DNA from: Mesodorylaimus sp. YZB2_4
Taxonomy: Eukaryota; Nematoda; Enoplea; Dorylaimida; Dorylaimidae
Direction: 5' to 3'
Length of the DNA: 64,000 nucleotides
NCBI GenBank assembly: GCA_030248295.1
Contig: JASANH010001164.1
Span: 62,001 to 126,000, forward strand
Positions 4,253-64,000 of the stretch are shown one piece after another. Made by a program: the position numbers and the translations under genes. The notes below the pieces were generated by a model, which saw only the letters and a program-made list of their open reading frames with translations, was not told the origin of the DNA and did not search any database. Position 1 is the first letter of the stretch; every line of letters begins with the position of its first letter.

Positions 4253-6358
4253 TCACTCAATCGGGCGCATGGTCAGCTGCATAATCAGATCACTATTCAC
4301 TAGAAGAGGTGAATTTTCCGCAGTTATGTCGTCCACGCTAATCTTCTTATCCATTTCCAAGTCTTGGCTGTACCTGAAATAGAGTTCCGTGCAGCATCAG
4401 TAAACCAGCAGTGAAGCAATGCAACTGCTCCTATTTGGTCTGCCATGTCTTACCTAGTCTTTGAAAATATCTTCTTTCCGAACACGGACCTCAAAATTTT
4501 CTTTTCATCAACGACTGACAGCAAATACTCGACAGGGCGTGTCTGGTCCAAAATCACATTTGAGACCAAGGTGCACCTGAACTCATCAGATGCATTGGAG
4601 AAGCCTTTTGGATGAATCTTCAATTCCCAGTCCCATGGCTGAGCTGGCGGAACAGCACTCGCTCTCGTAGTTATCTGAAAGCAACAAGACCATGATTGAT
4701 TGATACTACGGGTAGGGTTCTTGACCAACCTTTATGGTTGTCTCGCTATATCGTAGCATGCTAGGTACGTCGGGAAGTATGACACGCTTGTCCCAACGGA
4801 GCTCGGTGTAGTTCCTTAGTAGGAACTGGCTGCTTGTAAATTCCCTCGAACTGGCACGGCTACTCAAAGGTAGTGCTTGGTATTTATATGCTAACAGGAG
4901 GTGCTGCTGAAACAGTTTTTGGTACTGTTCCACCAAAGGGCATCGTTCGAGTTGGTATAGTTCGTCAGCAGTCATCAAGGGGAATCTGAAAGCGGGTGCT
5001 ATTTCAGAACACTCGATATGTCATCAAGGGCAAACCCAACCTTATCAGCGGCAGTAAGGCAGCCAAATTCTTCTCAGCCGCAGTCCCTCTGCGTTCTGGG
5101 TGCGACGGTGATTGGATCCAACGCGCCACAGCTTGCCACAATTCATATTCACTGGCCACAGTCAAATCTGAAGTCTTCAAGAATATCATCAACTGCTCTC
5201 TGTCCAATGTCAGCCATTCGCGCTCCCAATCTTGGTGGCTAATAATGTCTTGAAAATGGGCTGCCAGTATGTTCACGCATTGGGTGACCAGAGCCTGAAG
5301 ACAAAAATGTGATAATGAGGACTGACAGGAAAAAGTTGGTGGCCTTACCAAGTGGAAACACTTCGATCCATATTGAAACCAAACATGGAAGTTGTCCTTT
5401 AGGCACAGTTTAGGTATGATGTGGTTGGTCGCGTAGTCAATGCACACCTACAATGCAACCCCAGATTTTCAGCTCATATTCCTTTCAATCACACGCATAT
5501 TTGCATCACTTTGAAAGGATATCTCTTTTTTCTCTGGTCCTATAATCCCAATGTGACTTGCGAGTGCAACATTTCAGTAAAGTGTAGAATTTGAACAAAA
5601 GATTACTATGTAACTTGGGCAAACAAGCGTCTGAGTGAACTTTCGTACCTTTCTCAGACTTGGCACATTGTATTTATCCGCCAGAATCAACATTGGCAAT
5701 GCATCGTCGGGTGTGAGTACAACGTGGTTGCAGTAAAGGAAACGTAAAAAAGCTGGGAAAACTTTTGCACATAAACGATCTTCCACCAGTTCGATCTCCT
5801 GTCAAAAAAGGTGAGAAATTGCTCCAGTATAAAGCTGGAAGTATAGGTCGATGCGATGAGTCGAATAAGCTTGCGATGCGACGCTTTAGGAACCTTTTTA
5901 CATTGTCAGTTGACCCAATACTGACCCGATAATGCCAGCTTAACGGATGTGCAGGCCGAGACACTCAATCATTCGCAGTCTATGGAAGTGAAAAACTCAC
6001 CTTCTTCTCTCCGTTCCATTGCTGACTGAGCATACGCTCAAAAACTTCGCTACTTTTCACCAAAATCAACTTATGAGCGTAGAATCTGAAATGAATTTCA
6101 AATCGAACAGGAGTACGAGTACATGTTGCCGGCCAAGATGGTCCAAACTAGAAAGCTCATTACTGGAGGTGTAGCCCGCACATGATTCTCCCCAGCCTAA
6201 AAAGTATAATTTAACACCTAATTTCTTGCTTACAGTTCATCGCATACAATCAATGTCACGTCGCTGAAATTCTGGCAATTGAAGTATCTCGCGAATCCAT
6301 CCAAAGCATCCCTGTCATCTCCGTAGCAGTCCATTTCGCACACGCTGGTCAACTCCAT
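4253..6358 (-). CDS. BTBD17: BTBD17-like BTB/BACK-domain protein
   Basis: Eight exons in transcript order: 6358-6234, 6085-6001, 5798-5649, 5447-5349, 5294-5041, 4985-4730, 4674-4454 and 4373-4253. Phases are consistent throughout, giving 436 aa (human BTBD17 is about 480). The BTB domain covers residues 26 to about 135, with the typical FYAHKLILVKSS and LPMLILADKYNVPSL segments. The BACK domain follows (VCIDYATNHIIPKL to ADELYQLERCPLVEQYQKLF). A C-terminal beta-rich region (DWELKIHP, YLLSVVDEKK) matches the third domain of BTBD17. An in-frame TAA just upstream supports the ATG at 6358. Unlike vertebrate BTBD17, no signal peptide is seen at this start. One donor (AAG|GTTGGG at 5041/5040) is weak but required by the protein. 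Molecular role unknown; BTB-BACK proteins usually act as oligomers or CUL3 adaptors. Confidence 0.88.
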
Positions 6359-9749: not shown

Positions 9750-11642
<1,893 letters not shown>

Positions 11643-15026: not shown

Positions 15027-16085
15027 CTACAATCGAATTCCCGCCGCACCAGTTCTCGAGTTAATTGGCCAATTTCTGCCCCAAAACATTTTCTTTATGG
15101 CAGAACGAAATGATTCGTTAAAAAAGCTGTATATGACCGGGTTGGTCATGGTCGATGTCATGGCCACTAAATGGCATATGGCGAATGTCAAGTTGAAATC
15201 ATCACTTTTGAGAATGTAAGAATCGAACTTTAAATCTCGTGCCAAATTTACAAAGTTGAAAGGCAACCACATAAGGACAAACATGGTGACCATGGCAGCC
15301 ATCATGCGATTGGTCCTTCGTCTTCTATGGATCAATCGTCGTTCGCGTTCTGGTAGCATCTGCTGCTGGCTTTGCCTAGCCCGTATCTGCTCACCCAATC
15401 TGCTACTAATCATGAGATAGCAAGCTGATGTGCAAGCCACGGGCAGTCCAAACTGAACCACTGGCACTAAGATACCGTATATTCTTCGATCGGTTTGACT
15501 GGGCCACTGTTCTTCGCAAAATTCACCGCACACTCTCGCATAAGTGACCACTTTCATAAAGACGATCATAGGCGATGATAAAATGCTAGCCGTTATCCAA
15601 AATGCTGATACAGCTATGCAAGCTCGTCGATAGGTCACCCGAGTGATATGTGGTTGTGCGATCAGATAATATCGATCGACAGCGATCGATATCAATGTGA
15701 AGCTGGATGCGAAAATGCTACACCCTTGAAGAAAACCAATGAAATAGCACACAATCCAGCCAAACACCCATTCGCGAGTGAAGATGGTCGATATGGCCGT
15801 GATGGGCAACGAAGTGAGACCAGTGGTCAGATCAGAGCAGGCCAAATTGACAATAAATACTGTGCGCACAGTGAATGATATCTTTTCGCACAAGGCTACG
15901 TAAATGACTAGAATATTTCCACTGACCCCAAAAATACAAACTATCAAATAAAGGAAACCTAGAATGAGCTGTACGTGGAAAGCATCCGTACGATCGGGGT
16001 ACACGTCTTTTATATTGTCACAGGTCTTGAAATCAGAGTAATTGTTGGAATAATTATCGCTGTCTGGGATCCAATCTTGCGTCAT
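15027..16085 (-). CDS. Class A GPCR, neuropeptide Y/F receptor type
   Basis: Intronless 352-aa reading frame. Seven hydrophobic helices are visible. The class A landmarks are present: GNILVIY in TM1, NLACSDL in TM2, VDRYYLIAQP at the TM3 end (the DRY motif), FVLMWLPFNF in TM6 and TNPVIYSFFNESFR in TM7 (NPxxY). The N-terminus has likely N-glycosylation sites (NYS). Two Cys residues, at the TM3 start and in loop 2, can form the usual disulfide. The TM2 and TM7 sequences and the NESFR tail are typical of NPY/NPF, neuropeptide S-like and related peptide receptors, so the ligand is probably a neuropeptide. Signalling would be through heterotrimeric G proteins at the plasma membrane. The single exon contrasts with its intron-rich neighbours and may reflect retroposition or ancestral intronlessness. 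Exact subfamily is uncertain. Confidence 0.92.
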   Translation of the reverse strand: MTQDWIPDSDNYSNNYSDFKTCDNIKDVYPDRTDAFHVQLILGFLYLIVCIFGVSGNILVIYVALCEKISFTVRTVFIVNLACSDLTTGLTSLPITAISTIFTREWVFGWIVCYFIGFLQGCSIFASSFTLISIAVDRYYLIAQPHITRVTYRRACIAVSAFWITASILSSPMIVFMKVVTYARVCGEFCEEQWPSQTDRRIYGILVPVVQFGLPVACTSACYLMISSRLGEQIRARQSQQQMLPERERRLIHRRRRTNRMMAAMVTMFVLMWLPFNFVNLARDLKFDSYILKSDDFNLTFAICHLVAMTSTMTNPVIYSFFNESFRSAIKKMFWGRNWPINSRTGAAGIRL

Positions 16086-18031
16086 TTTTGAACACGTTAG
16101 CTCGATCGGGTTGGCATTAGCACGTTACCGACGGCCAACGTGCACACTTGGGCCGCTAATCTTTTAAAAACTCCGATCGAGCAGCTGAGCTTACACTGAA
16201 GTCCACGTGAACCAATAGCCTTCGTATCGCAGGTCTTTATTCCAGTCTCCTTTTACAAAATTTGCCGTTTTAGGTAAATGAACCAAAATAATAGCCGACA
16301 TTTGAATGTTGAATCTAGTAGACACCGTCAGCTCATGTTACTCTCAATGCTGGCAAGTAGGACGCTTAGGACTTTGCGCAAGAGTCCGATTTCATAAAAA
16401 AGGAAAAAATAGCGTCAGTTTGCCAATTAAACTTTGACCATATTAATGGGATGAAGCCGCCTTGAAACTAATGAACACTAGCATAGCGGGCATGGACTTA
16501 TCTCTGGCTTTTCACATTTCGTTCATTTTTCTTCTAAACTATACCCATCGCTCAGGAAATGGGTGGCAATAAAAGTTAATAGATCGACTTCTATTTATCT
16601 TTCCGCACACAACGCCTTTTGAGAAAAGCTATGTTTATTTCCTGCCTTCACTCCGAGTCGAAGAAGTAGAGTAAAGACTCGACGATAAGCGAGTCAAATA
16701 GAAAAATGGTCTTCAGTTTCGATATAATCAGCGGATTGCCTAATTTAAGATTCAGTTTCGGGTAAACTTAGATGATAGGGAACCAAAAAGATAAATATTG
16801 TCTTTAGACTAGAATCGAGCTTCCATAAAGTTTATAGCGTGCATAAACAACCGGACGCTCTCTCTCATATGGCTCAGAATACTGAAAGAAACCGAGTCCA
16901 TTTTCGGTTAGCACACTGCATATCTCGCCTAAGTGGGGCGGAGATTCGAGGGAGAAGCGCCCAAGGCCAAAGTGCTCTTTTCATAGATTCCACGTTGGTT
17001 GGTGGGGTGCCGACCATAAATTATCATCGAGGCGCACGGACGAAATGAAAAGCTGTGCGATTGTCGACAAATGGCCGCCTATATGTGATAGATGTGATAG
17101 ATGTGTATTATCAAGGCACCAGAATTTTTTTAAATTGATGGAAGAATATTGATTTTGAGTAAGGTCAGGCGAATCCTCAGGCAAAGTGGAGATATCACTC
17201 GTTGATTAGCCTCAGGGAAAGTTCATATGATTCTTCAAAATGGATTCAATTCATTCCATCATCCACACGTGTTCATCCCAAGCAGCTACAGGCGTTTGCA
17301 TGGGCGGAATGGGGGGGGGCAGCAAACAGAGCAGATGCGGAACTCCCGATCAACCAGAGGTATAGTGACCCTTTATAGCTATGGCTCGCGTGTCTATTGC
17401 TCGAAGTACACACTGATCTGCGTCACGAAATTGTAAGCACCAAACCGCCTCCTCCTTTTTTCTAGTATAAGATGTGTCAAACACAGCATATCGCGTGTCA
17501 GACAAAACATTCGAGCAGAACAAATGTGTTAATCGAGCTAGGGTTAATATGACCAAGGAGAATGGAATTTCCCTAAGCACACGGAACCATGACTGGGTCA
17601 TGTCGATTACGTGCGTAATAAGAGCAGATGAAACTGACTACGCATTGTATGACTAGGTGACTGACTTATACGAGTGGACGTCTCAATCACGCGTTTTTGT
17701 GATCATATTTTGATATCCATCGGAAGTATACGATGCTCATGAGGGCCAATCTGTTGCATTATCAAATTCTAAAGGGCTCCACTTTGGCCAAATGATGTAA
17801 AAATTTACCTGGCAGCTTCGATCATGTTCCTACCGAGTGAGGCCATGTGAGCACACAGCACGGCATTTATGCAGAATAATCAATCATCTAACTTTCTTCG
17901 GCACGTGATAAATAGACTACAAAAACTCGCACACAAAGACTGGACCAGACTAGGCCGGATGTGAATATGTCTTATAGTCATTTTACCATTTCTTATCGAA
18001 AGGTTCACTGGTGCAGGCAAGAGACTCGATC
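16086..18031. other. Intergenic, 1.9 kb
   Basis: No exon was supportable. The only notable element is a run of 9 G at about 17311-17319. The region separates the divergently transcribed GPCR and the secreted Tyr/Asn/Pro-rich gene, so it presumably holds both promoters. Confidence 0.4.
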
Positions 18032-21674: not shown

Positions 21675-23495
21675 ATGGCTCAAAAATCTCAATCGAAAAA
21701 AGAAGAGGAGAAAAAGCAATTGGGGTCGTTATCATTCAAATTGGACTATGACTTCCAGAAAGGACAGGTACACACACATGCTTTATATGCTAATTATGCG
21801 AGCATCTTTCAAATTTCTCTCCGATGACCACCAGTTCACGTGACGTGTCGTGGATGAGCAAGCGTGTCGCCTTCCGAGTCCCATGTGACTCAACCCTCGG
21901 CTCGAGCACGAGACCCCTACGTCATCCGCCCTGGCACTTTCCCCCGACAGCTTACTGGCCTAGCTTATGATTAATCGGGTCTCCCTTTTTAGCTAGCGGT
22001 AACGGTTATCGAGGCCAAAGACTTACCGGCCATGGATCTCGGGGGTACGTCCGACCCTTACGTCAAAGTATATATTTTACCAGAGAAGAATAAGAAATTT
22101 CAAACGAAAGTGCATCGTAAATCGCTTAATCCAGTATTCAACGAAACTTTCACATTCAAGGTAAGACTTTATTTGCTAATTGACTCCCATCAATTAAGCC
22201 TGGTAATGGTTCGTTTAATTTAAGGTGCCCTTTAACGAAGTCGCATCGAAAACGGTTCAGTTTTCAGTTTTTGATTTTGATCGATTTGGAAAGCATGACC
22301 AGATTGGCCAAGTGCAAATTCCATTGAACAGTGTCGATCTGGGAGAAGTACTAGAAACGACGAAAGACATTCAGGCACCTCCGGTAAGTCTGGTTCTCAC
22401 ACGTCATTTCCATGTGTACCTAAAAAGTGTAGTCTTACTGTAGTCGGTTTTTTTCCGCACGAGTTAGTTTTTGTTGGGCGCGTAGAACGTGCGCCTTCCT
22501 TCCCTTTGGTAAGCCGCACTCTCAAGTTACTCGAATGTGTCTATCTGTTCGTCTGATAATGAATTCAGTTCTTGACCTTATTTCTCGAAATCGGGTCAAA
22601 TTACTGATGCAACGTGGAAAAATCCTCGACTGGGGGGTTGGACCTCGGTGGGGGGGCGACGAGGGTGAGAGAGAGGAAGCCGAGAGTTACTACTTCCGCT
22701 TCATCCGATCGAATATTGCATTCTTCGAGCCATTAGACAGACTCGTGCTGCTTGGTCTCCCCTGGGCTCGATGCCAGCACCATAAAGGTCCTTGTAAGCG
22801 GATTACCTGCCTTCGGTCAAGAAAGCTAAAAAATCGTTATAAAACTACTACTTATCGTGCTGCCCCTGACCCGACCTTATTCGCTCGAATACATCCCTCA
22901 GGCATGACAAGTAAGAATGACATTTTTTATTCGCGCAGGAAAATCGATTGGGCGAAGTTTGCGTAGCATTGCGTTACGTGCCCAACAAGAATAAGTTGTC
23001 AGTTGTAATTATGGAGGCGAAAAATCTCAAAAAAATGGATGTAATTGGAACATCAGGTAAAAATCAGGCTCGAATGGTGCAATCAGAAACAATGACCAGA
23101 ATCGTCTCTTTTTCAGACCCGTACGTAAAAATCTACTTAATGATGGGTACTAAGCGTCTAGATAAAAAGAAAACCAGCATAAAAATGAAAAATCTGAATC
23201 CATATTACAACGAATCATTCGGTTTCGAAGTAACGCCAGAGAAAATTTCTGTAAGTTTTAAATTTTAAGAAAGCTTTTTAGGTATTTGTAGTCGGCCGTT
23301 TTGTTTCAGAGAGTGCACTTGGTGATCACAGTCATGGATTACGACCGTGTTGGCTCCAACGACCCTATCGGCAGAGTCACAATTGGACCTAACGAGTCTG
23401 GCCCGTGCCTGCGCCATTGGACAGACATGTTGGCGGCGCCGAGACGATCAGTGGCGCAGTGGCACACGCTTTTACCATTAAAGGAGGATGAATAA
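21675..23495 (+). CDS. Synaptotagmin-1-like double-C2 protein (no membrane segment found)
   Basis: Six exons, 21675-21767, 21993-22160, 22225-22383, 22939-23056, 23117-23250 and 23310-23495, give 285 aa with tandem C2 domains. C2A (about residues 17-135) keeps the five Ca2+-ligand aspartates: [16 protein letters not shown] and [14 protein letters not shown]2B (about 140-280) does too: [16 protein letters not shown] and [14 protein letters not shown]2B also keeps the Lys-rich strand ([13 protein letters not shown]) that binds PIP2 and SNAREs, and ends with [12 protein letters not shown]. These are hallmarks of fast Ca2+ sensors for vesicle exocytosis. The odd point is the N-terminus: it starts [19 protein letters not shown], directly at the linker, with an in-frame TGA upstream. 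No luminal or transmembrane part is present. Either a 5' exon lies far upstream or this is a soluble paralogue. Confidence 0.92.
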
Positions 23496-38769: not shown

Positions 38770-41700
38770 TTAAGTCGTGCTATACTTGGGCGATGGTGCT
38801 ATGGCGATAGGTTGCTTGCCAGTAGTTTTCTCTTTCGCCAAAGCACCTTTTCGATACTTTTTTATCTCCGGATTATGATGCAAGGTGATCCACAAATAAA
38901 ATCGATTGCGTATTCGCTTACGTCGACCTGTCTTAACCGACTTTGGGCCACTCGATTTCGAACCAGAACCTGAAGTAGCGGAATCCCCTGAACAAAAAGG
39001 TCTTAATCCCTTAAAGGCCTTACTGCCTTTCGATGCGATCGATGCGACCATGAAATTACGTTCGGGCGATGCTTCCACATCTCTTAGCATGAAATAGACG
39101 AAAGCCAGCATGGTCGGATTGGTCAACGCGCTCTCAAGCCTCAGGAGTCCTATGTATGCCATGAAACCTGAAAAGACATGTGTACAGACTTGGTTACCGT
39201 TTCCTAATAGCACCTACCAGCGTCACATTTTTCAAAATCGCGAGACAAAGCGCAGCGATCAACCCTGGGCAGTATCCACAAGCAGAAACCAATTGCCCTG
39301 AGCACACGCATCAAACAAGTCACCAAACCCAAAGCCGCATTGGGAAAAACCATGAAGTACTGCAAGTTGACAAAAACTGACCTAAATTGGGAAACCAAGT
39401 TTTAAAAACCAGAATTTGTCTGAATTCTTCGCTTACCGATTATCAATTGCCAAAACGCGTTTTCCATGTTCATCGCGTTGTAAGAAAAAGAAATGCACAA
39501 TAAGATGTTGTGCGATCAGCATGATGATCACGTAGACGCAAAGTGTCCTAAACAGGGATTAGCATCAAAAGCCACGATACTGAATGGCTGGCAACTCACC
39601 CCACTGTGATAATTCTTTGGCTAGCTGCCGAATACGGGTTTTTTATCACTAATCCGACAATTGCTCCGAATCCCGCTGTCGTCAAAAATATAACGATACT
39701 TTGGACAAAAAACCCTAAAATATTAGATTACGATATTTTGCAACGAAGCAAGGTGAGATATTACGGTTCACCCCAAACGACAAAGGCGAATTGGCAGCCG
39801 GCATAGCGAATCCCATGCACCTATGTATAAATCGTGCAATCACGTGAGTCATATGAAATGCACTGCAGCTTACGATCACGTCGCGTGACGAATGGTGATA
39901 ATCTGGCAGTTCAAGATCATGACCTCGATACAAAGTCAAGAGATTCGTCCGGTGTTCTTTCAATGCGCTCAATAATGTGATAGATGTCAACGAGTAGGAT
40001 ATGATTACCGAATAGTACATCACAACTAAACGAAGAAACGATTTTCCAGCTTATTGTAAATAATAGCTTCTCTGTCCCCCGCTTGAATTCTCTAAGAGTA
40101 CAGCCCAAATGGGAGTCGAGCCCTCCCAGAAAAGGGCTCGACTTTCGCCTGGGTAAAAACAATTATTGTCAACTTATGTGTTCCTCAGCCCGCGAGTGCG
40201 CTGTGCAGTGCTTGGCTATGGATTAAGTGCGATATGACATAAAAGCCTATACTGTACATATAATACACAGGAGAACACTTTTAACTCACTCATGTCCCTT
40301 GGACTGGGCTCCTTTAAAATCGGAGCGATATCCCTTAATATCCGCGGGTTGGGGGGGGGGGGGGGGGGCGGGGGGGGGGGGGGGAGAGAACTTTTCGAGT
40401 GGCTCCTAGGCTTGGCCCTTTTAAAATGCTATAGACTCGGGGTAACAAGGTAGGATCCTTACTTTTGACTGCAGCGCTCACATTGAAGTTTTGGCCAATA
40501 GCAAGCATCATTACGGCTCCATCCCTGATATAAGGAAAACTCGAATTGTCCCCGATTCTCACCAACGATCCAGACGTGACAAAATCAGCGAACGTGACAT
40601 TAGTGCCTCTATGCGTGTAATCAAAGATCGATTCTGCCAGGAATAACGAGTCTAGAGTCATGACCGCAATCTGAAAAAAGCGCAAACTGCATATATTAGA
40701 CTCACTGTCAGATGAAGCCACTCCGTACCACATAGACCAGCAACATGGAGACAAACACACCCGACAGGATACTGACCGAATAACGGAACCCTAAGCAATC
40801 CATAATTGTCTAAAAGGTCAGCTAGGACCAAAAAGAATCAGTATTTACCCTTTACAGGGGTATAAATCCTTCGAATTGACTTCGTGATTAGTTCCTTCAT
40901 TGTTAGCTTCTCCGGCTGTGGTTCCACTGGCTTCTGATACAGCTGTCGAACGTAGAGCAAATAAGAAAGATCAACGCGATTAGTGTTTTTCTAAAATAAA
41001 AGGATAAACTCAAGTGTCTCAAGTGAGCTAATGCACAAAAGCGATCACGTACGTTTTTCCATAATTTTAAGGCGAAGCGATAGGGATAAACGATGCACAA
41101 GTATAGCAGCCAAAAGAGACATGGTAGAAATTTGACAAAATTTAAAGCCCCGTGAACCTGGAACCAATATCTTAAGATTAGGTAGGTTTTATAAGTCGGG
41201 CTTGAAAGTACTTACCACCGTGATCGCATCGATCACATTGGCAAACGCATTTTCGCATGGATAATTCAAAAAAATGAACGACACAGTGAACGCCCACACG
41301 TACATTGTACTGATTGCATAACCTGAACATTCCATGCACATTACTACAGACCTCCCACCCCGAGTATAATGCTCACCGATTACGTTATCGGACGTGATTC
41401 CGGCAAATATCGGGTAGCAAATAATGCCAACCAACATGCTCGCAATCATTCGCAGCCAGACTGTAGGTGCAAGTTTAGACGCACTGTACTGTATAATGCC
41501 AAAATGTGAAAGAAGACGTTGACTTACAATGAAGAAACGTGTTCACACGACTGGAATCGATACCAAATAGCATATTGCCGAGAATAATCTCGTGCAACAG
41601 CCACACAGTTACACTGAATCCGCCAACGAATAAGACTCGATTGTGTTTATCCTCCAAAAAGTTAATCGGTCTAAAACGCAGTGAATGTTACAGAGCGGGC

Positions 41701-42063
41701 CGCAAAGTGGCCACTGAAGTATGGCTTACTGAGGCAAACCTGGACGCCCACGCAAGCAATTTAAGTACAGCCTTCGACGACGACGCAGAAAGGCGAAAAC
41801 AATGACACAAATAAACTGAAAGCACTTAAAGCTTGTTTAGCTAGAACGAGCAAAACCCTTGATCTTACCCCAGTAAGAAGCATTAGTTGATACCAAAGAA
41901 CTTTTTCGAAGCCAGCAGTTCGAACACATCTGAAAAAAACAGACAATAGCACAGTAGAAATGTTCGTACCAAAAAAGAGAACCGCAAATTACTCCAAACT
42001 AATTGTTTCGTTGTACTCAGGAGCAAGGAGCATAGTATTGTTGTAGAGCGAGTTCAAGTCCAT
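38770..42063 (-). CDS. STRA6: STRA6-like retinol transporter/receptor
   Basis: Sixteen exons in transcript order: 42063-42017, 41929-41869, 41815-41730, 41670-41528, 41460-41377, 41322-41216, 41157-41053, 40990-40849, 40790-40729, 40670-40463, 40025-39874, 39820-39772, 39714-39600, 39547-39437, 39381-39218 and 39167-38770. Every phase closes, giving 677 aa (human STRA6 667). STRA6 is a multipass plasma-membrane protein that moves retinol from its carrier into cells. Anchors recalled from vertebrate STRA6: RGRPGLPxPxxFL after TM1, RIYTPxxGF, EHRTNLLTLYRG, YAGCQFAFVVWG, LTNPTM and WITLHHNPEIKKYRKGAL. Hydrophobic helices occupy the matching positions. The first donor (GA|GTAC) is weak. The sequence between these anchors is very diverged, as expected for a distant invertebrate homologue. 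Retinoid binding itself is inferred. Confidence 0.9.
40114..40143. repeat. Short hairpin in STRA6 intron
   Basis: Arms 40114-40124 and 40133-40143 are perfect 11-nt inverted copies around an 8-nt loop, inside the 437-bp intron between 40463 and 40025. No function is evident. Confidence 0.6.
40351..40384. repeat. Poly-G tract: 18 G, C, 15 G
   Basis: A 34-bp almost pure G block inside a STRA6 intron. In the STRA6 pre-mRNA, which is minus strand, it is poly-C. It is the strongest G-quadruplex candidate of the window on the plus strand. Confidence 0.9.
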
Positions 42064-42178: not shown

Positions 42179-42208
42179 GCCTAGAAATACAGTACTGTAT
42201 TTCTAGGC
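42179..42208. promoter_or_regulatory. Perfect 30-bp palindrome upstream of STRA6
   Basis: GCCTAGAAATACAGT at 42179-42193 is followed at once by its exact reverse complement at 42194-42208. It lies 116-145 bp upstream of the STRA6 start codon, in the presumed promoter or 5' UTR. A dimeric transcription-factor site, an RNA hairpin or a tiny foldback insertion are all possible. Confidence 0.6.
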
Positions 42209-46980: not shown

Positions 46981-49389
46981 TTGTTACCGCTCTGATGACG
47001 AATAGAGGGTGGGTACCTGTCGCTTGCGCTAACACTTCACACTTCAGAGTCTACCAGAGCGAACAACTACTGGTTAGAGATGCTTCGTGGTGAACCATCA
47101 TCAATAACATGGAAAGCAAACCTGCTGTACGCCCCATCTGACGTGCGAAACATACAGTAGAAGAAGCAGTTTCAGCAGTCTCTCAGCCCTGGCTTGAGTG
47201 TAATCGCAAGTTTTCCAAGCAACCCGACAAGGAGCTTGGTCGTGAACGGCAGATGGCTTGGCGCTGTAATGAATGAGTTATTATGGGTCCCAGAAGAAAG
47301 GTTAGCCTGCAACATCACATTGTGTGGGTTTTTCTAAGAACAGGACAGCAGTCGAATTTTACAACAGGCTGTCGGGTCTGAGTCTTCTTACTGTTAGTCA
47401 TGACACATTTGATATGGTAAGTCAGAACCCGCGTATGAGCGTGAGTATAGTTTGTTGATGACCATTCGTCTACCATGGCGACTGCACGGGAGGACGTTGC
47501 GGTGACCGAGTCGCGAATTTCACATGCCTTCTCCACACTTGATATTTTTGCCCACTGTCAGCGAGGTCCCAGCACCAGACTGCACTCGACAAACCCCAAG
47601 ATCAGACTGCATTGTCCACTATTAGCCATCTGAGGGGCCAGTACCACGTCAACATTCTCGTAACTACCTTTTACTCACGATGGGGTCGTGTTTTCTCGAT
47701 ATTCTTGGCCAGCTGCTAGCGTGACTCTGTCCACAAATATAGAAGATTGATTCCCTCCCGACGGCTCTGATATATTGACTGCGGAAAACGAGCGGACAAG
47801 GAAAGAAGCCTTCATGAAGGTACGCAGATAAGGGTGATGGCAAGGCGAGTTGGGAAAGAAAAGACCCAATTGCACATTGGCAAAGATATTGAAAGTGTCA
47901 CCCAACCAAGAGATAAATGGCGCAAGAGTGGTCTTTTCCTCCAATTTTTGCCAATCATAGCCACTCTTATTTTTTTAACATACAGACCTCTTTTTGCAGC
48001 ACGTATGAGACGACAGACTGGCTCTGAACGTGGGTAATGTAACCAGCGCACCCAGGCGGCGGGAGATAGTCGAGACAAAACTCCGACTGGAGGTAGGCAA
48101 GTCTCGCGACTATACCTGCTCTAGAAACACCAACCGAAGAGGTTGACGTCCCAGCCAGGGGAACGTATCGATTACTCCCAACCGCCAGGCGTGCTGGTCA
48201 CAGTAATGCTCTGGGTCTGGGTTTCATTACACTACTTGACCGCTAATGAAGCCGTGTAAGGGCTTTGGACTGTTACGGGCGGGACCATACGTCAATCTGA
48301 TGTTTGCGCTGTCAGTGCGAACAAGTGGATATAATCATAAAGGCGGCGACGGCTAATTCCATTTTATTAGGGCCCAGATGGGTTGGTCTTTCATCCTTTC
48401 TAATTACCGGACCGTTTGCGCAGGAGTGAGCTCGCCAAGAGTCCTCCCCGCGGAGGGAAAGGAGTAGATTATAAATCAGGGATGGCGATTCCTTGTAAAC
48501 AGGTTGGTCGGCGGGTGAATAGGGTACTCGAAACGCAGTGAGTGCTAACGGGGAGGGGCTGCAAATAACAGCATTCTCAATTGAAAGGTTACGAGTTGAT
48601 CGGTCCCATTTCTGGACTAGGCACCGTGACGGCCCTGTTAGGCAGTGGGTAGAAGTCGGACGAAAGAGCGCAATAGAAGCAACGAGCCAACTGAAAATGA
48701 TGGATGCAATTCAATCGGCGGCTGCCGGTGGGAGGCATGGCGAGCTTGGAGAAAGCGAAAACACATTGCTCGGGCAACGGCGGCGATTGACGGCCATGCA
48801 AGCTCTCTAAAGAACGGATATATTGGCTAGGACGATCATCGCTGACGGATCTAGTACTTTGGTTGGTCCTAGGTACCATTCGTTTAAGGTTCCAGCGCCG
48901 CGCCGAAACCGGCCAGGCGCTATTACGAATCAATATTCGAGCACAAGGCGGGAGAAATTGATAGATGCTGTCCATCTAAACCGTGCGTCCGACTAGGAAT
49001 TAGCGCGTGTGCTGAGCGAGTTCGACGTAACCTCTGCATACTTCGATTTGAGACACAACTCGTGAGTTGGCTCGGCTCACCGCTGATGCGACACTCGGCT
49101 GGCGACAAGCCGACTGATGCGAAAACGAATGGGCCCTATTCGCCCTCCTCCCTCACGTCAACACGTGAAAGTGCTCAAGCAGGTGCCGCCCCGGTGCCCC
49201 TAACGGCTAGCACGAAGAACATCGGCTAAAGGGCATGAACGAGCAGCCGCCGAGGTTTCAAACGAAAAGCTGCCACCGAACGTGTCCAGTTGCTTGAAAA
49301 GAGACTAGCCAGCCGTGTTGCCACTGCCGCCCTCGGAATCCACTAAGCTTCGACTGACCTGCGATTACAATCTTTACTCATGTAATCGA
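46981..49389. other. Intergenic, 2.4 kb
   Basis: Lies between the divergently transcribed orphan membrane-protein and Ly6-like genes. No exon, RNA gene or clear repeat could be supported. Confidence 0.4.
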
Positions 49390-50559
49390 ATGCAGATTTG
49401 CCGACGGATTATGAGTGCATGTCCGCGGTGCCAACCGTCATCGCTCATCATTTCGTCGTGGCTAATTACCCGCCTCCTACTTCTCTGCTCCCCTCTCCGA
49501 CTCCCATTCACCCAAGCCATTCTTTGTAATAGCCAGTACTGCCCCAGTTACGGCAGAAAGCCCTGCCAAGCCATATTTGAATGCGATTTTGGCGTGTGCT
49601 ATAATAAATATATCTTCGATCGGTCATTGCACGAGGTCCGATACGTGGAAAGTGGATGCTCGACCGAATTTCATTCGTCAGCTATCGGAAAATGTGTGGG
49701 GGATGCGAAAGAGGGTTACACTTGCGCCTGTGACGCGGAACCCTTTTGTAATTATAACCACAGACAATTGGAGGCGAAGGACTCGCACCGACGAGCTAGC
49801 ACGTTCCAATTACGACACTTATCATGTTTGTACTCCAGCGATAACAGCCTGTGCTTCGAGCACGGATTCTCATCCATTCCGTGCAATGTGAGCAGCCGCT
49901 CTCATTGCGTGGTTGAAAAAACTGCTGGCAACGATGCTGTGCTCCAAGGCTCTGTCGACTATGAGGGATATTTTGAGCGGGCGGCCGCATTATCGGCCAA
50001 TCCTGGAGAGTGGTTGTGCGAAGAATTGGATTACGAACGACGTTGGCGATGTACTTGCCGGAGTAACGAGTGCAGTGCCAAGCCCATATCCGACGCAGCG
50101 ATCCCTCGCAAGATCGATAGATCGGTCGCTTCCGTGCTGTGTCGTGATTTTGATAGCACTCTCAAGGACGATGGCACTGGCGCTAATCGTACTTGCTACG
50201 GCCATGTGTGCTACGCCGAATACGAGCGTACTGTCATGCCATTAGTGGCCATGGACGAGTCTGAGAAACACGATCCCGAGACCAGAGTGAAGGACGTGCG
50301 TTTATCGCTCGGATGCAGAAATTTTAGTCGCCCCGATCTGTTTTACGCATGGGCTTACAATAAAGCCTATGGTTATAAACAAAGGGGTCAAATGTTCTGT
50401 CGATCAAAATTGTGCAACGATTTCACTCCCCAACATTTCAAAAACGTATCCTTTCGCTTGGAAGCCTCAGCCGCACGGTCATCGACGACGTTGCTGAGTA
50501 TGGCATCCATGCTGCTCGTCCTACTGGCCACTGCATTCTTACCATTGTCCTCAGGGTAG
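49390..50559 (+). CDS. Secreted or GPI-anchored protein with three Ly6/three-finger-like modules
   Basis: Single exon, 390 aa from ATG 49390; the Met at 49411 is also possible. A signal sequence (SWLITRLLLLCSPLRLPFTQA) precedes a Cys-rich ectodomain. Three modules of roughly 80-110 residues can be outlined. Each starts with a Cys-containing strand and ends with a C-x-C or C-x(n)-C cluster: LCNSQYC to CACDAEPFCNYN, LSCLYSSDNSLCF to CTCRSNECSAK, and VLCRDFDSTL to FCRSKLCND. The last cluster matches the CN-type ending of Ly6/uPAR folds. N-glycosylation sites are visible (NVSSRS, NRTC, NFS). The C-terminus ends in a hydrophobic stretch (LLSMASMLLVLLATAFLPLS) without a basic stop, fitting a GPI signal. 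Probably a cell-surface ligand or receptor. The specific family is unrecognised. Confidence 0.75.
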   Translation: MQICRRIMSACPRCQPSSLIISSWLITRLLLLCSPLRLPFTQAILCNSQYCPSYGRKPCQAIFECDFGVCYNKYIFDRSLHEVRYVESGCSTEFHSSAIGKCVGDAKEGYTCACDAEPFCNYNHRQLEAKDSHRRASTFQLRHLSCLYSSDNSLCFEHGFSSIPCNVSSRSHCVVEKTAGNDAVLQGSVDYEGYFERAAALSANPGEWLCEELDYERRWRCTCRSNECSAKPISDAAIPRKIDRSVASVLCRDFDSTLKDDGTGANRTCYGHVCYAEYERTVMPLVAMDESEKHDPETRVKDVRLSLGCRNFSRPDLFYAWAYNKAYGYKQRGQMFCRSKLCNDFTPQHFKNVSFRLEASAARSSTTLLSMASMLLVLLATAFLPLSSG

Positions 50560-51249: not shown

Positions 51250-54200
51250 TTACAATCTGGAAATTGTGTTCCTACTTCCACCGAAGCTGCTGTTTCCTTC
51301 TGCGCTACTTGCGTGTGTTAGATTGGGGTCATCCGCGATTTCCGACATTGTCCATCCCCCGAGTCCATCCAAGTGCAAGCGTGTGGTATGATAAGTTCGC
51401 AACGTGCGTCGATGGCCAACGCTAACGTACGTGATTCCAAGCTAGAAGAAAATCAATATAATCTCAATTTGCATCTACACTGTCTCAAATCCTAATTCTA
51501 AAAGGTTATTCAAATTTTAAGTTAAAAATAGATTTTTCACCTCATACAGCTTGCAATAAATCATATCTTCCATGTCCGTTCCAACAGCACTCGTAGCCTC
51601 ATCCAAAAACACGACCTCCGGTTTATGAAAATACACCCGCGCCATGCTCAACCGTTGCATTTCGCCAGGCGATAACGCATCGTGCCTAAAACAAAACAAT
51701 GCTGGACGCCAAGACATGAAACATCTTTTCTACGGTCTTACCAGTCCCCGTCTGGCTGACCGTCCAGACCACCGCATCGCTCAATCAAATGGTCCAACCG
51801 AACGCTGAAGAGAGCTTCCACGATCATCGCATCAAATTCTGCCCCTAAAACCACTTCAGGCATTACAGACCTAAACTCCTTAACTGTCTTTACCTGCAGG
51901 AATAAACCCAGCTCGATACGGATACACCACTTGTTGTCGCAAACTCCCGCTCGGAAAGTATGGCTTTTGAGGTAGAAATATCACGTGACGAGGCGAGCGA
52001 ATGACATTGGATGAAACGACACCTGCAACGACAGCTGAGCAAATTTTCAAGTAATGCACATTAAATTTTCAACCTACCCGACTCAGTCTTCCATAATCCG
52101 CACATGACTCGCAAAACGGTTGTCTTGCCACTGCTACTTTCACCCGTAATCAATAACCTGGTTCCTTTGACAATATTGAAAGATAGTTCTGCAAAAAAGG
52201 AAATATCTCTCCCAGATTCGAGTTCATTCTCTCTCATAGCAGAAACTCACCATGCACAAGGAAAGTATCACGTCCTGGAGCTCTATACGATACAAAATTC
52301 AACGAAAAATAGACATTAAGGTCAGCAACGTCCAAACGCGGATTGGGTAAGAAGCTAAAAACAAAATCATAACTTTGGGCATGAATAACTTTAGGCACAA
52401 CTACCTGTACCCGTTTGGCACCGATTTCGGGGATTGCGAGTCGTCGTAATCGTCCTTACTGACGTGATACGCATTCAGAAATTCCACTAGCTCGGCTACA
52501 CTGTAACACAATCTAGCTTTAGCTGCAGCTCTATTACAAGACAGTGCAATCATACCGGTGAGTCGTCCCGGCCATATTACTGACTTTTGTCGACAAGTCG
52601 ATTAAAGTTGAAAATGAATTGATGAGGTACATGTAGTAGAACGAATTCTACAAGAGAAGACTGTTAGCTCCGACCAGTAGAATTGTGCAGCTACTGATCG
52701 TGTACAGACTCAGTCAGCCCCCCCCCTGACCACGATCACAGCTCCTACTTACCCGACTGACAATGCCAGTCAAATCCACTGGATCCACGTCATCATACAA
52801 GTGCAGCAAGAATATGGCAATGGCCAGCACCAAGTAGCTGAGTATGCCGCCAAAATAATCGAACAAGCTGGTCGATACTGAAACAAACAGCAAATCAATT
52901 GAATCTACCACAGCTCACCAAGTATTCACAGTTGAGTGGAAATTGCCAACTAACAAGGCGTTGCTGCGTATTGACCAATGTTTCGAGCTTTTCGTTTGTC
53001 AAATAGTTTTCCAGTGGCCCTGATTGAAAGAATGCGATCGCCTCGGAGTGGGATCGCACAGCTACATGTTTGTACCTAAACAATAAAATAGCATACAGTC
53101 CGGACGAGCTGCAGAGGGTCAACTGGCAGTCGATCCTCTGCACGGAGCCGGAAGCTGGGGGGGGGGGGGTGTCACCTGTCTTGGCCATGGACTAGGTCGG
53201 AAGTCTTGGATGGCTGCCATGGGTTAATGGCGTGGTGCGAAAGCTTTACTGGCTACACCCTCTGGTATTGTGGACCCAGAGATAAAAGAAAGATGTTACG
53301 ACGGTGCTTTACAGGTCAAAACCTCAAGCTCGCTCTCATTGCATCATCCTTCAATGTGATCTGATTTTTAACATCACAGATCTCTCGTTAATAAAATTAA
53401 GTCTTATTACCTGAAGTTTCCTTCCTGTTTTTCCTGTTCCACCACCAAACTGATAATAGGCGTCATTATAAAACGATTCAGAACAGTTCCTATCACAAAA
53501 TACACATATATCGCCACTGGACCCAAATACCCCGAGCTGAAATAAAATATTGATGCCTTTTCAACATTGCCACCATTCATTAAAAAATCGTAGCACCTTT
53601 GAAAAGTAAGATAAGTATAATAGCCGATGACGAACGGGGAAATGAGCAATTTTGCAAATATTTCTCCAAAAACTTTACATGTCTTTTCGACATCTTGAGT
53701 TATGCGCTGGTCCCTGAAAAATTGGAAGTTTATAATAGAAACAACTCCCCGTAAAAGATAGCTCGGCTTACACGTTATCTATTTCTTCCTTCTTCAAAAC
53801 GTTGAGCTCGTAATAAGCGAACCCTTTAAAATAGAGGGCGTGCACGCGCTGGCAGATCAGACGTCGCCAGGTAACGTATAAAATAGAAGAGGCGAATTTC
53901 ACCGTTGTCATAATCTATTAATAAGATAACAAAACGATCTCGTATGTATCTAAAACCAAGGAGATAAAAGGGGAAAGTACAACAGTTGTGAAGAACAAGC
54001 TTGATAGATGACGGGTGGCAAAGTATGGTTACAACTTTGTACTGTGGATGACTGCACTGAATTGGATTTCAGAGCTGCATGTGCAGGACTATAATGCTAA
54101 GAGAGACAAGTGATAACTTGAGAGCATGGTTTCGTAGCATCGCGAAAAGACAGTACTAAGGTTTCCTCTTTTCAATAGACTTGTCGTATACTGCATCATT

Positions 54201-54614
54201 CGCCAAAATCAACTCAAATCTTCATTAGGAATCCTCAACCCGTGCTTTGCTTATCCAGCAAAGACATATTACTCTACCCAAAACAAGCAGAAACGCGCTT
54301 ACCAAGCACTTGGCAAAAACAATGCAGACCGACTTCCACGCTATGCTATTGAACTGTGACTGACTTTTGTGCCCCAGCGCAACATAGAACTGCGAAGGCA
54401 CGATACCAAGATAATACGAAAGCACCTGATCTGAAAAACCAGAATCAGGTTGCACTTATACGAAATACATGATTTTTCTAAGCTTACCCAAAACGCTTGC
54501 AGCTAAAACATAAAATGACAAGAAAACGGGTGCACTGATAACTGCTGGGAACATCATTTTCAAATGAAGCCAAAATCGGCGAAAAAATACGCGGTCTAGT
54601 TTGAAAGTCCTCAT
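51250..54614 (-). CDS. ABCD4: ABCD4-type half ABC transporter (lysosomal cobalamin export)
   Basis: Fourteen exons in transcript order: 54614-54488, 54430-54303, 53914-53772, 53713-53411, 53075-52930, 52877-52753, 52647-52556, 52500-52405, 52354-52251, 52188-52078, 52022-51894, 51844-51742, 51685-51541 and 51441-51250. All phases close, giving 647 aa (human 606). The membrane domain carries ABCD landmarks: [30 protein letters not shown] and [15 protein letters not shown]. The nucleotide-binding domain has Walker A GESSSGKT, a signature in ABCD form ([13 protein letters not shown]), Walker [12 protein letters not shown] and the switch His in SVGHR. In animals ABCD4 homodimers work with LMBD1 to move vitamin B12 out of lysosomes. 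Inserts versus human are an acidic loop before the NBD (SKDDYDDSQ) and a longer Ser-rich C-terminus. The start Met opens [15 protein letters not shown], with no peroxisomal-type N-terminal helix, which agrees with lysosomal ABCD4 rather than ABCD1-3. Confidence 0.95.
53085..53320. repeat. Possible dispersed repeat inside ABCD4 intron, with 13-G tract
   Basis: Lies in the 335-bp intron between 53411 and 53075, which is several times longer than its neighbours. It shares GGAAGTCTTGGATGGCTGC and GTGGACCCAGAGA-type blocks with the P450 intron at 12640-12960. It includes 13 consecutive G at 53157-53169. Probably a fixed insertion of a low-copy element. Confidence 0.35.
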
Positions 54615-62500: not shown

Positions 62501-64000
62501 GCTCAAAATGTACAAGGGTAAGAACCAGTTATTTCAAGCCAATGGCCTCCACAACTTCACTGACTTTTCAGACACTATGTCACTCACTACGGTCAAGTCT
62601 GCTGCTACGATCGCGACGGTTATTTGATGCAGACGAGCTATCAGACTGTGGTGCAGGTCGATAACTATCCCTACAGTCCAGGGTTCCCACAGAGGGCATA
62701 CGAATTTGGCACGTACCCGTTCGCCAAGCAGTTCGAGGTAAGCCGATTCCAGATTATTCCAAGAACGCCTCTAATCGTGCGTTCTTATTTCAGATCCCGA
62801 CCCTGTCCAACTACTACCACGATGTCATGCCTTACTTTTTCTGTTGCAAGTGGGTCTCGGATCATTGCCAATTTTTCTACTGGCGTCGTCCCAGCAGCGG
62901 ATGCCAAAACTACCGACCGCCGGGTGTGGCCACAGTCATGGGTGCAGGCCATTTCGTTACTTTCGATAATTTGCAATACACTTTTAACGAGCCTGGGACT
63001 TACGTCTTCTTGTTCAAACCTGAAGTACGTCTACAATACAATCGAGATCAGAGCGTGCCAACATCGCCACAAGTCTTGATCGAAATTCGCATGGAGAGAT
63101 ATCCAAACAGGATGACCGATTTCAGTAAGCGATTACGAACTAATACTAAAATCATTATCTAATCAAGACTGTAAATTTCAGGTCATCGAGACATTCCTCA
63201 ATTCGATCTCGTCCAGCCACAAAACGTCAGCGTCATCACTGGAGTGGCGATCCAAGAAGGCTCGAGCAAAGAAAGCGATCGCGTGGTGTTCAGCCTGCGC
63301 AAGGACACCCGCCGAGTCAAGTACCGATTGAACGTGCTCGTCAATGACGAGCTGCGTTATTTCGATGTGGTCAAGACGCAAAAATTCCGTGGAGTGACCG
63401 TCTACGTAAACGACTGGAAGGAAGGACAATCGGAAATTTATTGCACTTTGGAAAGAACTCGTATCGGATTGCGTATTCGAGAAAGTTATGCGGTTGAGAT
63501 CATTAGGCAAGTCAAGTTCGAGGAATCGTACGGTCTTTTGGACGTTCTGGTCTCAATTCCACCTGAATACCAATTGGTAAGATTTGAGATCTTTGTCACT
63601 TGGGTGGTATAAATCAAATGTCTTCATTCCAAGGCTCCCGATCCAACTGGTGCCATCAACTGGGACAGTGCTTTAGCCGGTCTCGTTGGCACGTTTTCGA
63701 ATACGACTCAAGACGATTTCATCGATCCGAGCACCAGGCGATCGATTGGAAGCGCATCCGGTTCCAGCGAGTCTGTTGCTCAATTTGCTAGGATGTGTAA
63801 GTCCACTGAAAATTTGTCTTTGCTATCAGGATGACATGTCGATTACATTTTAGGGAAAGTGGACAACATTCGTTTCCCAGACTTGTTCGTCTTGTTGTCA
63901 CAGGATCATGAGACTTATCCTGAGGCCTCACTCCTGGGTCCAGTTTACCCATTCTCAGGGGTGCAGAGCAGTGCAGGTTATCCTCCTTATGTTCCACAAT
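59546..64000 (+). CDS. Mesh-like NIDO-AMOP-VWD adhesion protein, N-terminal 1068 residues (continues past window)
   Basis: Fifteen exons visible: 59546-59762, 60293-60429, 60485-60788, 60842-60945, 61001-61129, 61184-61361, 61420-61535, 61592-61721, 61775-62171, 62227-62517, 62572-62737, 62794-63124, 63182-63576, 63634-63796 and 63854 to the end. All phases agree. A signal peptide is followed by a Gln/Pro/Asn/Tyr-rich segment (to about residue 75). A NIDO domain spans about 110-300 (DLFTFFPYYGGKFNYSI, QVVFATDRAAQLSYVILNYH). A module of about 300-440 follows, then an AMOP-type Cys-rich domain at about 570-725 (CIDWYQEDG, CPCRLEQA, CCYDRDG). A VWD-like region starts near 770 (FDNLQYTFNEPGTYVFL). 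This order matches Mesh, which organises smooth septate junctions in arthropod gut, and relates to vertebrate SUSD2. The transmembrane segment and sushi/C-terminal part lie beyond the window. Function in junctions or adhesion is inferred from family. Confidence 0.92.

Follow-up and report, generated by a model that had tools for sequence, protein, structure and literature searches.

The gene described here raises the question of whether a STRA6-like protein of a nematode is a retinol receptor in the vertebrate sense or a receptor of the same family that serves other lipids. STRA6 has nine transmembrane helices (TM) and an intramembrane (IM) helix, with calmodulin bound on its cytosolic side; a homologue, RBPR2/STRA6L, is known from vertebrate liver and intestine, and automated 'STRA6-like' annotations exist for many invertebrates. 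According to the excerpts of a 2016 review, invertebrates lack STRA6, and the organised delivery of retinol is a refinement of vertebrates (PMC5133064). Excerpts of other papers list a PF14752 'Stimulated by retinoic acid 6-like' gene in the rotifer Adineta vaga (FUN_025721; PMC12220480), a STRA6-annotated transcript in Aplysia (PMC8195618) and, in the table of a beetle transcriptome, an entry for STRA6 (PMC9979532). The novelty that a sequence-only reading of this locus had implied for a protostome homologue is therefore not upheld, the Adineta and Aplysia genes being already in print. In the excerpt of PMC9333335, transporter profiles were run on seven species including C. elegans, and RBP_receptor is named. 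For a nematode STRA6 family we found no account in the excerpted open-licence literature on STRA6 or RBP_receptor in invertebrates, nematodes and amphioxus, which is a weak absence; no paper there linked STRA6 with tardigrades. A link to C. elegans RDY-2 was considered and dropped; in the excerpts of PMC4970718 and PMC11249921, RDY-2 serves to mark the apical membrane and its family is not stated.

Gene structure

The DNA analysed is a stretch of 64 000 nucleotides (the window; C181:62001–126000) from an assembly of 145.1 Mb in 1067 contigs. The STRA6-like gene lies on its minus strand (42063..38770), from an ATG at 42063–42061 to a TAA at 38772–38770, and consists of 16 exons with a coding sequence of 2058 bp that encodes 685 residues without an in-frame stop (Table 1). 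All 15 introns are of the GT–AG type and 14 of them measure 50–67 nt, the exception being intron 10. A splice chain built from splice signals alone gave 20 exons, was wrong in the middle of the gene and at its 3' end, and was replaced using junctions guided by homology and phase; the junctions around exons 8–10 and that of the last exon were fixed in this way. When the 685-residue protein (the window protein) was used as the query of a purpose-written spliced aligner on the DNA, an identical 16-exon model was returned. When the gene is compared with the 19 paralogue models described below, 12 of its 15 introns coincide in both alignment column and phase with an intron in 5 to 18 of them, and three have no counterpart in any; the paralogue models were built with a profile that includes the window protein, so that this support is strong and not fully independent. 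The exon chain is far beyond chance because its product matches the Pfam family PF14752 with an E value of 8.1e-74. On the sequence evidence, the 16-exon gene is real. The sequence-only reading had proposed 16 exons closing in phase, which the GT–AG introns and open frame bear out, and a full-length product of 677 residues; full length is retained and the count becomes 685, with one or more splice choices presumably differing.

Table 1. Features of the window, given as feature, positions, strand and remarks
Exon 1	41993..42063	-	start codon; N-terminal segment with N-glycosylation sequons N8 and N18
Exon 2	41869..41929	-	first hydrophobic stretch (residues 31–58) spans exons 2 and 3
Exon 3	41730..41815	-	ends in RGRPGLP(Q)
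Exon 4	41528..41670	-	
Exon 5	41377..41460	-	
Exon 6	41216..41322	-	
Exon 7	41053..41157	-	
Exon 8	40849..40990	-	ends in RRIYTPVK(G); zebrafish YIYTP
Exon 9	40729..40790	-	
Exon 10	40463..40670	-	approximately the zebrafish 289–342 segment (vertebrate RBP-docking part, TM6–TM7); divergent; sequons N311, N329 and N350
Intron 10	40026..40462	-	437 nt, sole long intron; C-tract and dispersed repeat
Exon 11	39874..40025	-	contains HRTNLLTLYRG
Exon 12	39772..39820	-	
Exon 13	39600..39714	-	
Exon 14	39437..39547	-	
Exon 15	39218..39381	-	core, with equivalents of zebrafish R511, R525, D527, E536 and D539; only exon of the gene that matches PF14752 alone
Exon 16	38770..39167	-	LxxE....NP stretch past the juxtamembrane loop, low-complexity basic linker, C-terminal RNRFYLWITLHHNPEIKKYRK, stop codon
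Palindrome	42179–42208		30 bp, perfect; upstream of the STRA6-like gene, about 115 bp before its start codon
GPCR frame	15027–16124	-	intronless rhodopsin-type frame of 365 residues; 7tm_1, E 2.4e-50
Cysteine-rich frame	49309–50559	+	416 residues; apparent repeated modules (by eye), hydrophobic ends; no Pfam match at E 0.001
Rad51 exon	10702–11181		match to Rad51
BACK exon	5004–5447		match to BACK (kelch-type)
ABC exon	53407–53778		match to ABC_membrane_2
AMOP exon	62665–63162		match to AMOP; VWD just below its cut-off
C2 exon	22921–23268		match to C2

The dispersed repeat in intron 10 is about 105 bp long and is 75–81% identical to copies in four other loci (L012, L020, L030 and L038). The inner 28 bp of the upstream palindrome occur at a single place in the whole assembly.

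Family assignment

The window protein matches the Pfam RBP_receptor profile PF14752 with 249.8 bits (gathering cut-off 25) over positions 8–604 of 605. In a search of the PDB (177 635 distinct sequences) it matches only zebrafish STRA6 (5sy1) significantly, with an E value of 1.1e-26 against 1.5 or more for each of the following three sequences. The window protein and four of its paralogues all match PF14752 and no other Pfam family. Crude hydropathy analysis shows approximately ten hydrophobic stretches in the window protein, a number compatible with the STRA6 topology. Under that topology, five of its six N-glycosylation sequons (N8, N18, N311, N329 and N350; Table 1) would fall on extracellular segments, the sixth sequon being N498. 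By sequence comparison, assignment of the window protein to the STRA6 (RBP_receptor) family is secure. STRA6-family identity had been proposed in the sequence-only reading from remembered motifs; the profile search that it asked for has now been run and, with the match to 5sy1, confirms it. The full-length homologue in a protostome-like genome is likewise confirmed by the extent of the PF14752 match, with a nematode as the host. The landmark motifs themselves agree in part: RIYTP (YIYTP in zebrafish) and HRTNLLTLYRG (HRSNLKGLYRG) have clear counterparts and HNP corresponds to zebrafish NNPSL, whereas RGRPGLP is only loosely matched by zebrafish RGLTGLLSPVNFL.

Host genome

The assembly contains 133 matches to the cuticle-collagen N-terminal domain (PF01484) and 27 to TTR-52 (PF01060), families that mark nematodes. 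Arthropod Chitin_bind_4 had no match in the assembly, in a search in which no control matched. From these sequence markers the host is a nematode, which refines the earlier 'protostome-like'. A tardigrade host, considered at first in view of the compact genome, was rejected on the collagen and TTR-52 counts. STRA6-like matches share each of the contigs C3, C8, C16, C68 and C414 with matches to nematode collagen, and on C3 less than 500 bp separates a STRA6-like model that ends at 1746073 from a TTR-52 match at 1746541. This co-occurrence speaks against contamination. The contig of the window, C181, has neither a collagen nor a TTR-52 match among those listed.

The STRA6-like loci of the genome

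A PF14752 profile search of the assembly found 30 places on 12 contigs, all above the cut-off, from which 21 spliced models were built with a purpose-written profile-guided aligner. The model on C941 agrees with the third C598 gene at 98.7% identity over 6769 bp; it is probably a haplotig and was excluded, leaving 20. Each of these has at least one exon above the PF14752 cut-off. C34 carries six of the loci, C598 three, and C126 and C13 two apiece, so that 13 of the at least 20 distinct loci are clustered, on four contigs; C3, C8, C16, C68, C181, C253 and C414 have a single locus each. A scan with a weaker intron penalty gave many noise or fragment chains scoring up to 175; once the penalty was raised, nothing but the 21 models passed the threshold of 90. 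A further candidate in the window (54405–54605; C181:116405–116605), with a score of 64 over 48 residues, was judged to be noise. A genome search with one paralogue as the query, in which 69 of 136 candidates were scored, recovered the same loci and a partial match on C390; this match, which could represent an additional copy or else a haplotig of the first C598 gene, was left out of the count. The copy number rests on the Pfam profile and this one-paralogue query, and the counts given are lower bounds. One scan of the genome_contigs set, covering 200 pattern-matching stretches, confirmed no prokaryotic relatives.

In-frame stops are absent from 19 of the 20 models. The remaining one, C34:297090, has two unless a GC–AG intron is read there, and C13:272427 showed one stop with a single-sequence query that disappeared with the profile. 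The C414 model lacks the N-terminal part, and another exon lies further upstream. These stops, together with the junctions missed by the signal-only chain, are what can be said for regarding the gene as an artefact (contamination, a pseudogene or a chance exon chain). The open 685-residue frame, the intron positions held in common with the paralogues and the nematode markers on the same contigs stand against this explanation, which is highly improbable and already largely refuted.

The relationships of the loci were examined in a quick maximum-likelihood tree with SH-aLRT support only, containing the worm loci and zebrafish STRA6 as the sole outsider. Neighbouring genes mostly group together: five of the six C34 genes (98), the three C598 genes (99) and C126 with C16 (99, inner order unsettled). 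The sixth C34 gene joins the C598 group (94), and one C13 gene joins C68 rather than its neighbour (97), C13 with C68 having a support of 100. The window gene groups with C253 (95) and both group with C414 (97). The median end branch is 0.64 and that of zebrafish is 4.14. Pairwise identity among the 20 loci ranges from 25 to 86% (median 32%), and identity to zebrafish STRA6 from 18 to 24%. The grouping and the range of identities therefore indicate old duplications and later tandem duplications. The single-gene orthology assumed in the sequence-only reading is not supported as worded, since there are at least 20 loci and the tree, with zebrafish as its only outsider, shows no one-to-one partner.

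Conserved core and variable docking segment

The equivalents of zebrafish R511, R525, D527, E536 and D539 are retained in all 20 loci. Across the loci 42 columns are nearly invariant, and 27 of these carry the zebrafish residue. According to the excerpt of PMC5954442, the retinol site lies between the IM helices and is stabilised in zebrafish STRA6 by the D539–R511' salt bridge, which links the juxtamembrane loop with the intramembrane helix; when this bridge is disrupted in human STRA6, Matthew–Wood syndrome results. The same excerpt places L323 in a lid peptide. The essential RBP-binding domain, in which three residues are essential, is placed between TM6 and TM7 in the excerpts of PMC4584289 and PMC3546623.

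When the alignment was divided into 18 stretches in zebrafish numbering, the mean paralogue identity was 0.551 for residues 491–520 and 0.536 for residues 521–550. The lowest mean pairwise identity among the paralogues, 0.098, was found for residues 311–340, within the RBP-docking part, the next lowest being 0.211; the loci vary in length here and have a mean identity to zebrafish of 0.091, and the divergence is inflated to some extent because the loop is the least certain part of the gene models. No conserved RBP-docking part between TM6 and TM7 was found among the 20 loci.

Of the 190 possible pairs, ten were chosen for estimates of substitution rates; they involve 12 of the 20 loci, the window gene not being among them. 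Outside the TM6–TM7 loop dN is lower than dS in all ten pairs (dS being saturated in five), which also argues against an artefact. The two C598 genes that form the youngest pair have dN/dS values of 0.019/0.085 in the core (461–569) and 0.535/0.959 in the loop (296–341). No positive selection was seen in the fast-evolving loop, where dN is lower than dS in every one of the ten pairs tested; relaxed constraint therefore explains the loop as well as re-tooling does.

These patterns bear on the proposal that the fold has been kept and transport lost, the protein being a signalling or matrix-associated membrane receptor or scaffold that senses carrier proteins. STRA6 is also described as a signalling receptor (PMC12953553 and PMC5549806, in excerpt), and a large family with a diverse extracellular segment would fit recognition. 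Such a role is nevertheless quite improbable for the window protein, as the strongest constraint (0.55 and 0.54, with R511 and D539 in 20 of 20 loci) falls in the intramembrane and juxtamembrane core at the lipid site.

Candidate carriers and ligands

A retinol receptor in the vertebrate sense would belong to a vitamin A pathway of the worm, in which carotenoid oxygenases produce the retinol and the receptor, binding a secreted RBP-like lipocalin, moves it. The genome has six RPE65/carotenoid-oxygenase matches (L031–L036; best E 1.6e-47), several of them in long open frames, and eight matches to the lipocalin family PF00061, and the salt bridge at the retinol site is kept. Two of the eight lipocalin matches, L037 and the similar L041, are intact open reading frames. 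The nearest PDB match of L037 is apolipoprotein D (E 1.9e-18), and no RBP4 chain is present among its 17 PDB matches at E 0.01, L037 being the one ApoD-like lipocalin compared. A third PF00061 match, L038, belongs as an exon to a gene of the fatty-acid-binding-protein type (heart FABP, E 6.6e-16) and is no secreted lipocalin. Sequence comparison thus leaves a carrier conceivable, with none that is RBP4-like among those tested. FAR (PF05823) and NPA (PF16469), both nematode lipid carriers, had no matches in an exon-by-exon genome search in which no control matched, a weak result for either family. Carotenoid oxygenases and lipocalins have other roles as well, 20 loci are more than one retinol receptor needs, and no stretch is less conserved than the RBP-docking part, so that a receptor of the vertebrate kind appears unlikely. 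The 'retinoid transporter' of the sequence-only reading is for the last of these reasons unsupported as worded. Retinol as the ligand, taken by itself, is plausible, with the balance leaning somewhat against it.

Proposed function

Judged from its sequence and those of its paralogues, the window protein is probably a receptor of the STRA6 type for lipid uptake, in which the membrane core is conserved and carrier docking has diverged. As a polytopic receptor-transporter of the plasma membrane, this nematode member of the family would receive a small hydrophobic molecule (a retinoid, a sterol or a similar lipid) from an extracellular carrier. The lipid would enter an outer cleft, pass to a site near the intramembrane helices and leave to the cell side. 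We infer this mechanism by homology to zebrafish STRA6; what is observed is the conservation of the parts. From the divergence of the TM6–TM7 segment we further infer that carrier docking has been re-tooled and that the copies may serve different carriers or ligands.

A wider reading, which is possible and on the whole doubtful, is that STRA6 in this nematode lineage forms a diversified array of at least 20 loci in which one lipid-translocation core is kept and the carrier-docking segment is swapped, the copies taking up different lipids (retinoids, sterols and environmental hydrophobics) from different carriers. If so, vertebrate retinol/RBP uptake would be one specialisation within a lipid-receptor family that is older and general in function. 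The presence of at least 20 nematode loci shows in any case that the receptor family is older than the 2016 review holds (PMC5133064) and able to diversify strongly. The loci provide a comparative set in which the residues of lipid translocation (the invariant core) may be separated from those of carrier docking (the variable loop), and they open a testable route to the ancestral ligand.

Comparison with known systems

The nematode proteins resemble zebrafish STRA6 (5sy1) over nearly their full length: a profile of five members, the window protein and four paralogues, aligns with residues 39–627 (E 1.7e-63). The likeness includes the core formed by the intramembrane helix and juxtamembrane loop, with R511, E536 and D539, and a C-terminal motif that reads R..W.L..TL.NNPSL...RK in zebrafish and R..W.L..TL..NP.L...RK in the worm. 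In contrast, the window protein is only 23% identical to zebrafish STRA6, and the TM6–TM7 part that docks RBP is without conservation in the worm loci. The number of genes differs as well, with at least 20 loci in the worm compared with STRA6 and one homologue in the excerpt of PMC3546623. The STRA6-like genes of Adineta vaga and Aplysia, compared here by description only, share the family name and a protostome host with the window gene, and that of Adineta also the Pfam family. Unlike the nematode loci, they appear in the excerpted reports as one gene each in lists, with no multigene array described there (PMC12220480; PMC8195618).
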